A stretch of DNA of 64,000 nucleotides, taken from Steinernema hermaphroditum (Eukaryota > Nematoda > Chromadorea > Rhabditida > Steinernematidae). The notes below the pieces were generated by a model, which was not told the DNA's origin, ran no database searches, and worked only from the letters and a program-made list of their open reading frames with translations. Every line of letters starts with the position of its first letter. Within the stretch, counting starts at the first letter, position 1. The position numbers were made by a program, and so were the translations under genes. The stretch is from the NCBI GenBank assembly GCA_030435675.1, contig CM059625.1:9920001-9984000 (forward strand), given 5' to 3'. Positions 3,501 to 11,400 of the stretch are shown here, piece by piece.

Positions 3501-6500
3501 TATCCAGGTTTTTCGTAGAAGTCTGTGCCACTTTGTGTTCAACCTCTCCTCGGCCCTTCGTTCTTCTTCTGCAAGCACTTGCTGGAGTTCTTGACTCGCC
3601 TGAAACCGCGTCAATAAACTCCACAACGGTCGCTGTCGTATCTCACTTCTATGAATTTGTCTCGCGCGTACGCTTCGATTAAAGCTCTTCTTCCATGTAT
3701 AGCGCAGTGAGGATTGAAGAAGGTGTGCAATCCGCACCAGCTATTCATCCGTTGTCGCTGTTGAACTCTGTGTTCAGTTCCATGTGCGTCAACAAGTTTG
3801 GTTGTTGGGAGTACGAGCGATGTATGTCGATTCAAGCGATTTGCGTATTTCTCTCTGATAATGACGTCGTCGAAGTCGGAATCTGAGTCACCATGATCAC
3901 TTTTTGATCGATGCTCTTGGATTTGGGGGGCTAGAGTAGCTGATGGTTCACAAATTCGCGGTTTGTGTCTGAAAATCGTATGACTATGTCGTATAATGGG
4001 AGAAGGGCACGGTACAAGGTGTCCAATCGACCCGTTTCGTAAATCTGCTGACTGGTCCTTCGGCTTCCTTCACCACGTTCCACATACCATGGATGAGCAG
4101 TGGGAAAGTCAACCTAGAAGATATACGGAACTGTAGGTTGTTCACCTAGAGATCAATGTTTTACATCAGAGATGAGATTTGTCGGAGATCTTGTGAACGA
4201 AGACACTGCTCGTGGGTATCCTTCCATTTGCGCTCTTACGCTGTTGAGATTACCTGAACCACAGGTGCATACCGTTCTTCGATCTTCGCGTTGTTTCATG
4301 ATAAAAGATGGGGACGATGTTTTAGCTATTAGCATTTCGAGTTCCCTTTTCCTTTCGTGTTCTTCTTCATCTGCTCTTCGTCGAGCTTCTTCCTCCTACA
4401 GTAGTCCCGTTCCAAAACTGTCCCTTTACAATAACAAACCAATTGTCTTTTTTCTTCCTCTTTACTTTCTTGAAATCCTTCGACCAAAATGGCGACCAGT
4501 AGATTGAAGAGAACGTAGTTACCAAACGTCATCAGGGCAACAAAATAAAGCGCTGCCCATGGAGTTGTCTGCGCCATGCCGTTGAAAAGTACCATGTTCC
4601 AATCTTCTTGTGTCAAAATCTACAATTCAACGGTCAAGAGAATCCCTCCCTCACGAATGCAGCCATGCAGTTTCTAAAAGCAATGACAACACCTGGAACA
4701 CGGTTAAGAGCGAGTGCGATATTGAATCAAAGTTCATTCTGTCGCATTCGCACTCCTTTGCTTTGATCTGAGCACAGGTGCACTGTTCGCCGGTTTCGTG
4801 ATGATTGCAGAACTTGCATCCAAAAAGGACCATGCCCAAAATGCTAAAAAACGCATAACAACCACAGTGACAAAAACTACAATAATGTGTTTATTAACGC
4901 ATGCAAAACGGAAAAGGACGACAGAAGGACATCGCAAGTAACCAACCTGGAACACTGTTATCAGGGCCCAAAGTAACGTGTCGAAATTTTTTCGCTCGCA
5001 CTTTTTGACCAAAGCTCCCATCGCGTTCTCTTCGACTTTACAGAATTTGCAACCAAAGAGGTTCATGCCAAGGATACTAGAAAGAAAATGTTGATCGGCA
5101 TGCATAGGTATGGGGAATGTTAATTGGGGATTCATTTCGGAGGAAGTGACAGATATTTGGTGTACCTGAAGATGAAGATGAACAGTACGAGAAGACCGAA
5201 GAATACGGTAACATTATCCATGGTCCGTAGCATAACAACAAGCTGATAGCGAAGGGCCGGCATGAAGCGTACCAGTTTTAGAATTCTCAGCAAACGAAAT
5301 GTTCTGAGGACAGAAAGTCCTCCTTTGCCTTCTTGAAACAGCTCGAGCACACTAAATGTCGACGTCAGAAACATTGCTTTAGCATTCGGACTCTCCGACC
5401 TCAGGGCAACAATCCCACCGTCGAACAAATTAAACCCGTCGGAAAGATACCCAAATAATCCATCGGCGAACACTTTTAAAATCATTTCAAACGCAAAGAG
5501 TCCGGTGAAAAAATAATTGCTGTACTCGAGGACCGTTGTTAGCCATTCGGGCTGAAACAAACCTCGATTTAACCTTACGATTGCAGACTGTTACCTGCAG
5601 GTGATATTCAACTCCCATACTCAGAGTGTTGACGAGAATAGCAACAAGAATGCCGCGAGTGAAGTGGTCGCATGTGACAAACGCTCTAACTTTCTGGCGA
5701 ACCCACCCAAAGGTGGACAACTTTTGCTGCTTCTTCGCTTTTGTCATTCGTTCTTCCGCCTACAAATTGAATTGGAGGAACGTTGTACGGGCACACACAC
5801 CTTTCTCCTTTCATAAGAGCGCACTTCTGGTCGGGAAGCCGGGAGAGAGTCTGACGACCATTGTCCGTCCTCTTCCCAATCCGATTCTTCTCCTGAGGAG
5901 TCGCTCACCGGCAATATCGAGTTCAGATATTCGGAATCGTGTAGGCTCTCGACGTGCGGCTTTCCTAATTGGAACGGGGTAAAGGAGTTCAGAGAAACAA
6001 ACGAACTTCTAACGCTACCGTTGAGTTTTCTCTCTTCGGTGGGCTGTCTACTTCGCCGCCTACGTCTATGCACCTTTCTTAGCGCTACGCTGGTACCTCC
6101 ATGATCCACCGCTGGGTGCACATCAGAATTGACAACTGTTTTGTTTGCGTCCTTAGCCATCGCTCGACGTGCGCACCGCTCACGGTACTCGCGCCATTTC
6201 TAAAGAAGTGGGCTTCATTGGACTCCCGGAATAGCACTCTTACATTTCGCAGATACCTCTGCGTTCTTCGTGAAGTATGGCCTACAAATCGTACAAATGC
6301 TGCATAAACAGTGTCTCCACCTCCGTCTCTCGAGGAAGTGGCAGCACCTTGCTCGCTTCCCGCTATAATTAAGACATTGTAATCCTCATATCAACATAAA
6401 ACTTACAAAGAGACCCGTAAGATCTCATTCTTCTCCTTTCTTGAAGCATTCTCTCCGTTTCTCTTCTTTTGGTCTCTGCGAATTGAGTGGCAATAACAAC

Positions 6501-8402: not shown

Positions 8403-11400
8403 TTTGTCCGCTGATCCTCTAGCAAATTACGCTTCTTGGAAACCGGGTTCCAAGCACTTTCGGCAGTTTTTCATTACCGGGAAGGGCGACTGTCTGGGGA
8501 ACAGTCGTAGAGACAAAGGATGACTTCACAACAACAATATTGAGTGGAATTTACGGCTCCACTCTCCCTCGCATATTAATGCATTGCAAAGGGCCAATAA
8601 AGTCTGAAATTGGTGAAATACCTATGCATAGCCGTTGTTTAAATTGAGAAAATCGTACTCATTTTTCACGACCCGTGTTAGTTGTGAGGAGTTGAAGTAG
8701 ATTAAACCGATAAACACTCACTCAACCGGCATCTCGAAAGAAGTGCGTTTTATCTCATTTCCGATCTTGAAAAGGCTTTCGCTGGCTCGTAGCATTTGCA
8801 CGCCAAAATTAAGCGAAAAGCGCATGTCCGATTGAAGCTTTACTTGTCTCCATGAAATTGCTTACGATCGCGACCAGCACACCCAACGCAAACAATACGA
8901 CAGTAAGTATCAGTCTATTCAGAGGGACAAATGAAGTACAGAAATCTTCAGACACTATCAAAGCTCATCAAGAATGTTCTGCTATGACTTACAGTTCGTA
9001 TAATTTGCGAGTCTATGCGGTACTCCCGCTAAAAGCGACATGCATTACGAATCGGTCGGCGCTTTTAAGTTCCCAAAATGCTATTTGAAGAATTAGGCTA
9101 AAACTACCTATAACCTGACACGACCGATGGGCATCCGATTACAATGCACTTGGCCGCTGTCGGGTCACTGGAAGCAACTGCTTAACGACTGTTATTTCCA
9201 TATGGCGAGCGCATTTTCAAGTTTACTCAGAAGCTGTGCTACGCGAACTTTGACTGCACGGATGGACTACCAGATTGGGAACAGTTGCGCACTGATTGTC
9301 ACAGTTGTCGACAGCTTGTAACGACATTTGCGAGACGCATGCCTCGGGCGTTGAGCATATTACTAAGGAGGCCCAGTCCCATTCTCCCAAAACAATTGCG
9401 AATCGATCGTTTGCGGTGTGGGTATCTATCCCGATAACGCCTGGATTCCAATTCGTCCTCGCGGAGAGCATCTGAGGGCATGTCTGACATACTTAATCTT
9501 TAAGTTTTTTGTTTTGATCTGATCCTTCTTTTCTACCCGAAGGATACGCTCTACTACATGAATCATATGATAGGACAAATAGAAGTCGTCCGCTTTTTAC
9601 AATCATTTACGACCTCACAGTTACGAATTGTAAATTCTATCAGGAGCAGGTTGTCCTAATGCAGATAGGTTGCCCTTCAATGGTGCAAAATAACCCTTAA
9701 AGTATGCTCAAACTTGTGGTATGACATTGAAATAAAAAAGCGCGTCAAAAACAACCCAAAGAGTCATATCGGCCGTGCCGAAATTCTACTTATCAAATGA
9801 GATATATAATTCAACGATCGATTGACTGCCAACGGGCGCCGTTCGTCGGAGCGGCGTCCTCACGCGTGTCCCGCTTCCTGTAATTTAGAGAACAACCGCA
9901 GTTGTTATTCCAATAAAATAATCAACAACATAATTATTATTATTGCGCCCACAGAACTTTCTTTGGCACATCTATTCATGGGATAAATTGTTTGGTCAAT
10001 GACGGCGCACTCGCGCGCCCTTGGCAACAAGTAGAAAAACTGTGACAACGTTCAATATTCCAAAAATTAAGCCTTTCTAGGCAACCTATGAAGAGATGTG
10101 AAATTAGGGTTTTTCACCCTCTAAACGTCATTTCTGCTTTTATAAGCAGTGTGAATATGAGAGGCGACGTCGTAGAACCGCATAAGCTGTGGCCGCAGGC
10201 AAATGGCAGCGAATGGCGTGCCAAAATTTTCGCACAAACACACACATGAACACTCTAAGCGAGAGATAACAGACCAGAACGGCAAGAAAATGAGGAAGAA
10301 AAAGACACGTTTTGACACCATATGTCAACGAAGTTGTTAACGCGTGTTTGTTAGCGATTGGCGTTTGTAAAGCTCTGGAGCCGAAGAATAACTCTGGCAT
10401 GGAACGAGAGGGACTACCCGAAGAGATGAAAAAAGGCCTGGGCTTGTAAGGGAGTGGTGATTGCATGACAGCCCAGATTTAAAGCTTCCGCGTAAACATA
10501 CATTCAGTGAAATGGATGCTTCGAATGCAAGAAGGGGGTTGTGTGGAAAGGCCGTCAAAAAAATAACGTGCGATGATGGTGTTCGAGGGCTAGAATAAAA
10601 ACAATTAGCGGCACTTATATACCGTACTCAAGAAGGCGTTAGTGTTTTGCGTCTTTTGCATGAAAGCGCCGTAGAATTTGAAGAAATATTGGAACTGTGG
10701 GTCACTTTTTAGTTTAAAGCACGAAAGCGGCTGCCCCTTTAATATAATTAAATTTTAAAGACGTCTTCTTTCACTAACGGCACAATTTTTTCGTTTCCAA
10801 AAGAGTTGATCAGGTGGACAAGCGAAGACGGCCTTCATTTGAAATGCATGAAAATCGGCGGAACCCTTCGTTGAACGACGCTAAGAAGTCGGACATGTGG
10901 GAATGCATTGGTGCGCTTTAGGGAACTTCTCTGGACGGCACCGCGTTGCCTTGTGCAAGGAAATAAACCGTTGAAAAAGAAAGACACTCCGAATAGCGCT
11001 TGGAAGGGCCTTTGGGCAAAAAATTTGAGCATAAATATTGTCTCTAAAAGCCACTTAATCGCAGCATTTTGGCGCTTTATATCTCACTTTATATCGGTTT
11101 CCAGTTTAATCCGCCAATGTGAATAGTCCTTCTAGACAATGCGGAGAGACAGAAATCCAGAGACATCTGAAACATCGTTTACTGCCGGTTACCATTATTC
11201 GCCATTGAAATATGACGATGATTAAGTAAAACAAGTGACATAGACAGCAATAAAGTTCCTAGGTTGGCACGGTACACATAAAATGGGGACCTACTTTGGT
11301 AAGGCCTCAGTTTCAAACGGATTTGCCATGGTTTAGTAGATTCCGGAGCAAATCACGTTACGTGTTTACAGATGAGGTTTATTTGAAAGAAAACAGGAAC

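Follow-up and report, generated by a model that had tools for sequence, protein, structure and literature searches.

Introduction

In the snail channel LCav3, exon 12a gives a sodium-permeable channel and exon 12b a calcium-selective one (PMC9694082). The proposed switch is a lysine of 12a that neutralises the aspartate beside the domain II glutamate; in snail mutants altered at the switch position the ion preference is swapped, and the C. elegans exons carry Lys (12a) and Met (12b) there (PMC9694082). Chimeras need the invertebrate D4L6 loop for full sodium permeability (PMC7382465). The turrets encoded by the two exons are distinguished by length and by their cysteines: 12a is described as 38–46 residues long with a CxxC...C arrangement, and 12b as following one of two five-cysteine patterns, C...CxC...CxC or, in some nematodes, CxxC...C...CxC (PMC7382465). 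Two generalisations have been published for nematode 12b, namely that the tether cysteine always lies outside the turret bridges (PMC10120453) and that a neutral residue always occupies the lysine position (PMC9694082). Both exons have already been described in nematodes, including C. elegans (PMC4436565, PMC7382465, PMC9694082). Pharyngeal action potentials of C. elegans need a sodium current, yet Nav genes are reportedly missing from nematodes; a sodium-permeable Cav3 made by splicing has been proposed as the sodium source (PMC9694082).

Two further systems offer parallels. In NALCN, the exclusive exons 15a/15b and 31 likewise convert a four-domain channel between a calcium-like and a sodium-like pore (PMC4436565). 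However, the NALCN exons alter the filter residue itself, whereas the Cav3 exons change the turret and leave the filter as it is. In the C. elegans genes egl-15 (exons 5A/5B) and unc-32 (exons 7a/7b), UGCAUG and the proteins ASD-1/FOX-1 steer the choice between exclusive exons, with UGCAUG located in the intron preceding egl-15 exon 5B and in unc-32 intron 7b (PMC3585155). FOX-1 uses GCACG too (PMC7787662).

Here we describe a pair of turret exons, A and B, in the Cav3 (cca-1) gene of the nematode Steinernema hermaphroditum. The gene lies in a 64,000-nucleotide stretch of contig CM059625.1 (positions 9,920,001 to 9,984,000, assembly GCA_030435675.1), referred to below as the window. As judged from the published accounts compared (PMC4436565, PMC7382465, PMC9694082, PMC10120453), the locus resembles Lymnaea LCav3 and C. 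elegans cca-1 in having tandem domain II S5–P1 turret exons of the same phases, a short 12a with CxxC...C and Lys, a longer 12b with a neutral residue, an EE(D)DD filter and extra D4L6 cysteines. Unlike the published 12b patterns, which have five cysteines, Steinernema exon B has six; its UGCAUG arrangement is absent from the same accounts of Cav3 12a/12b. In contrast to the descriptions of egl-15 and unc-32, the Steinernema sites are found in all three introns around the exons, the target is an ion-selectivity turret, and the control is putative. The exon pair itself is already known in snails and C. elegans, and the Steinernema copy adds another member; new here are the UGCAUG arrangement, the six-cysteine exon B and a set of exceptions to the published nematode 12b rules.

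Results

Gene structure

The best database protein, P0001 (Steinernema hermaphroditum QR680_001935), maps base for base onto the window with 34 introns and delineates a four-domain channel gene on the minus strand (Table 1). The top solved-structure matches for the domain II piece are Cav3.2, Cav3.3 and Cav3.1. The four filters (SLEGW, TQEDW, SKDGW and TGDNW) supply E, E(D), D and D, the EE(D)DD arrangement of Cav3 (T-type) channels, and the gene has the extra D4L6 cysteines, like C. elegans. P0001 includes exon A, and exon B falls inside a 327-nt intron of this model. When exon A was used as a query against the whole 90.6 Mb genome, the matches were exon A itself and exon B only.

Table 1. 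Features of the Cav3 gene around the alternative turret exons (window coordinates)
Feature	Coordinates	Strand	Remarks
Whole Cav3 (cca-1) gene, as P0001	550..8402	minus	start codon 8402, stop codon from 550
Shared exon upstream of the pair, end of domain II S5	5166..5351	minus	last two bases belong to a split Ser codon
Intron before exon A, 89 nt	5077..5165	minus	TGCATG starts 5104
Exon A, 12a type, 130 nt	4947..5076	minus	turret, three Cys, switch Lys (CERKNFD)
Intron A–B, 103 nt	4844..4946	minus	TGCATG starts 4905
Exon B, 12b type, 151 nt	4693..4843	minus	turret, six Cys, switch Met (CECDRMNFD)
Intron after exon B, 73 nt	4620..4692	minus	TGCATG starts 4669
Downstream shared exon	4440..4619	minus	domain II filter TQEDW and S6

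Two further introns of the gene deserve mention. P0001 intron 1871–1738 (minus strand, 134 nt) omits the domain IV S4–S5 region, for which relatives have an exon. An alternative, shorter intron at approximately 1852–1800 would retain S4–S5 but is without an AG acceptor in the assembly; an assembly error or a non-canonical splice site is possible. The 48-nt intron 5399–5352 (minus strand) is a multiple of three with no in-frame stop; retaining it would insert 16 residues into the voltage sensor of domain II.

Reading frame and splice sites

The upstream shared exon ends in ATC TTC AG, followed by GTACAC, with the boundary at 5166. The split serine codon is completed as AGT by exon A (T, then ATC CTT) or as AGC by exon B (C, then ATT TTG), and both exons continue the reading as SILGM. 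Both also close on a codon boundary, with GTG TTC CAG (Val-Phe-Gln), and continue into ILTQEDW at 4619; their lengths, 130 and 151 nt, are each 1 modulo 3. A sequence-only reading of this DNA had placed two exons with the same entry and exit phases at 5076–4947 and 4843–4693, and translation bears out these coordinates and phases. Tandem exons that share their entry and exit phases and encode the S5–P1 turret of domain II are the layout of 12a and 12b.

Splice forms containing A alone or B alone are open. The form containing both meets TGA at 4729–4727 within B, and the form with neither runs through IFRF to TGA at 4615, soon after the join to 4619, both as had been anticipated from the sequence. 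Forms with a retained intron contain a stop in all three cases tried. It had also been claimed that the frame forces the choice of exactly one exon. This holds insofar as RNAs with both exons in or both out would be unproductive, but the frame does not force exclusive splicing: frame logic would account for the faulty RNAs being unproductive, not for the cell's choice of exon.

Every junction around A and B is GT–AG. In a scoring matrix built from 31 other introns of the same Cav3 gene, donor A outscores 27 of the 31 and acceptor A 17, while acceptor B outscores 29 and donor B seven. Donor B is rather weak.

Since the A–B intron, at 103 nt, has sufficient length for splicing, any exclusivity must come from regulation together with RNA surveillance. 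It is very unlikely that exclusivity is instead imposed by an A–B intron that is too short, or by intron–intron RNA pairing, without protein factors: the 31 other introns of the gene are only 39–62 nt long, and although the duplex energies of intron pairs 1–3 and 2–3 rank within the lowest 10% and 6% of shuffled values, no pair passes 5% and pair 1–2 is weaker than the shuffles.

Relationship to exons 12a and 12b

Cav3 relatives came from two sets of 4921 and 4127 matches, of each of which the best 120 were listed (184 different proteins), and the turret was excised. They are protein-database rows, many of them gene predictions, for which an RNA check is advisable. In pairwise comparison among the matches listed, exon A is nearest to S. 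glaseri 12a (score 223, with 124 for the best 12b) and exon B to Necator 12b (score 192, with 120 for the best 12a); B is up to 68% identical to the 12b of other nematodes in the same set. These scores, and the recovery of A and B alone from the genome by exon A, argue against a resemblance by chance. Exon A encodes 43 residues with the pattern CKFC...C (CxxC...C), within the range and arrangement published for 12a.

In a turret tree, which comprises 57 sequences in 50 columns and has many open forks, A falls with the 12a rows and B with those of nematode 12b. Left out of this tree were rows from Acrobeloides, Aphelenchoides and Ditylenchus destructor labelled 12b, and an S. hermaphroditum 12a row that duplicates A. 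The 12a/12b label changes twice on this tree, compared with approximately 19 times when shuffled. Mollusc, flatworm and annelid 12b are separate from ecdysozoan 12b, and just 10% of bootstrap trees hold each label together as one piece; the turret tree therefore does not demonstrate a single duplication. The order of the exons is constant, 12a preceding 12b in all 17 of the predicted proteins containing both among the matches listed (nematodes, molluscs and arthropods), in keeping with one old duplication.

On the basis of these comparisons, A and B are assigned as orthologues of invertebrate Cav3 exons 12a and 12b. The sequence-only reading had correctly named Lymnaea exons 12a/12b at this position; its proposal that the nematode gene uses the same switch is supported, and was already in print (PMC4436565, PMC7382465, PMC9694082).

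Cysteine patterns of exon 12b

Exon B encodes 50 residues with six cysteines, CKFC...CTC...CEC (CxxC...CxC...CxC), occupying every position of both published patterns. Among the matches listed, 21 nematode 12b rows were tabulated, with P0006, P0007, P0024, P0026, P0040 and P0054 omitted as chimeric, partial or odd models and P0049, P0101 and P0112 as species repeats. The first Cys and the middle CxC occur together in three rows (this window, Necator and Pristionchus fissidentatus). Eight rows have the first Cys with a single middle Cys, as in C. elegans, and ten keep the CxC with the first Cys replaced by Tyr, Arg or Gly; none of the 21 is without both the first Cys and the CxC. This complementary pattern suggests that one cysteine can stand in for the other. 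Judged from these rows, many of them gene predictions, the rule of an outside tether fails in part of the phylum, that Cys being missing from 10 of the 21 rows among the matches listed. The six-cysteine form is likely to be the intermediate that links the older pattern of protostomes with that of C. elegans.

We consider it very unlikely that B is a relic of recent disuse in a gene that now uses A alone. P0001 takes A and skips B, donor B is rather weak (above seven of 31), and nematodes with only 12a exist (Brugia; PMC4436565), but B has an open frame, intact GT–AG junctions, all cysteine positions of both 12b patterns and the identity to other nematodes' 12b given above. In addition, the protein collection was clustered at 90%, and the nine-member cluster of P0001 may hide a 12b isoform.

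The switch residue

Counted from the last Cys, exon A reads C-E-R-K and exon B C-D-R-M. The Lys of A is thus three residues past the last Cys, and the Lys/Met arrangement is that of C. elegans. Among the matches listed, Lys occupies the switch position in 17 of 17 nematode 12a rows; the switch residue is neutral in 19 of 21 nematode 12b rows and Arg in those of Trichinella and Trichuris. These two rows, P0047 (Trichinella pseudospiralis, CPRRNFD) and P0133 (Trichuris trichiura, CSRRNFD), are also without the outside Cys.

Vertebrate Cav3 rows among the matches listed have the same Lys (DRKNFD), yet vertebrate Cav3 channels prefer calcium. Lys alone is therefore insufficient, and would work only in the right loop. 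Lys is also found at the switch position in the 12b of Capitella (P0123) and Vespula (P0164), and so is not a marker of 12a in every phylum.

UGCAUG sites and RBFOX

The three introns around A and B, of 89, 103 and 73 nt, are longer than the 39–62 nt of the 31 others (those of 120 nt or less, with the 134-nt model intron 1871–1738 set aside). Each contains TGCATG exactly once, and this is the sole hexamer common to all three. As UGCAUG, it is the RBFOX site. An RBFOX RRM is encoded over two exons on the same contig, approximately 114 kb from the Cav3 gene (G000:C5:10038916-10039185); the exon pair therefore has both hallmarks of RBFOX-regulated exons, a genomic RBFOX gene and UGCAUG in the introns on either side.

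Other motifs gave no such pattern. GCACG does not occur in 5165–4620, and GTGTG, TTGTTG and TGTTGTG, among other strings sought, are absent from the three introns. Among the papers listed in the literature searches, none shows a link of RBFOX to cca-1 or to Cav3 exon 12.

That the sites are coincidental, with both exons truly used in exclusive fashion and other factors choosing between them, is a serious possibility, if somewhat short of probable. Against coincidence, the rate of the window (40 sites, two strands, 64 kb) gives a joint probability of approximately 1.6e-5 that all three introns hold a site, and in 2000 dinucleotide shuffles TGCATG was shared in none, while any hexamer was shared in 2.55%. 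In favour of coincidence, the motif was noticed first and tested afterwards, a site is found in one of the 31 other introns of the gene, and the window contains one further group of three TGCATG (within 450 nt; plus strand, approximately 10461–10844), outside the Cav3 gene.

Search for Nav genes

PF06512, used as a proxy for Nav, had no match in the genome and none in control genomes either, and is therefore uninformative. A vertebrate Nav domain III P-loop query gave four weak matches in the genome (32–43% identical). Two of these have the domain III filter Glu as in Cav1/Cav2 (STFEGW and TTGEGW), the third is the Cav3 gene described here, with filter SKDGW, and the fourth covers only query residues 45–79, past the filter. 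These matches fit an absence of Nav but are no proof of it.

Discussion

It is highly probable that S. hermaphroditum has an orthologous 12a/12b pair, one exon of which enters each productive mRNA, and that the pair acts as a sodium/calcium switch, with the choice probably made by RBFOX. The parts of this model that can be read from sequence are the exon pair, its phases and stops, the kinship with 12a and 12b, the diagnostic residues, the UGCAUG sites and the RBFOX gene. Exclusive use, ion preference (measured in the snail), RNA decay and RBFOX control are what we infer from them.

Each productive mRNA would take one of A and B. With A, the short turret clamped by cysteines would bring Lys next to the filter aspartate of domain II (TQEDW), allowing sodium to pass; with B, Met would leave the filter aspartate charged, and the channel would prefer calcium. 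RNAs with both exons or with neither would carry an early stop and would probably be destroyed. Choosing the exon probably falls to an RBFOX protein of the FOX-1/ASD-1 type that acts on the UGCAUG of the three introns, together with a tissue-specific partner.

It is tempting to combine the two new features of the locus. In such a reading, RBFOX would toggle 12a and 12b through the three bracketing UGCAUG sites, and the six-cysteine exon B would be a surviving intermediate in a shift of the tether to the voltage sensor from within the turret bridges to a place outside them. We offer this combination tentatively and regard it as somewhat doubtful.

The switch itself has already been described for nematodes, and the interest of the Steinernema locus centres on the RBFOX arrangement and on the comparative exceptions. 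The locus offers an intact 12a/12b pair together with a concrete, testable candidate regulator. The exceptions to both nematode 12b generalisations, the neutral switch residue and the outside tether, bear on the lysine-switch model. If the combined reading is true, the position of the tether would vary within nematodes instead of being fixed as published, and Steinernema would have a sodium-channel switch that operates at the level of RNA in an animal in which no Nav was found.
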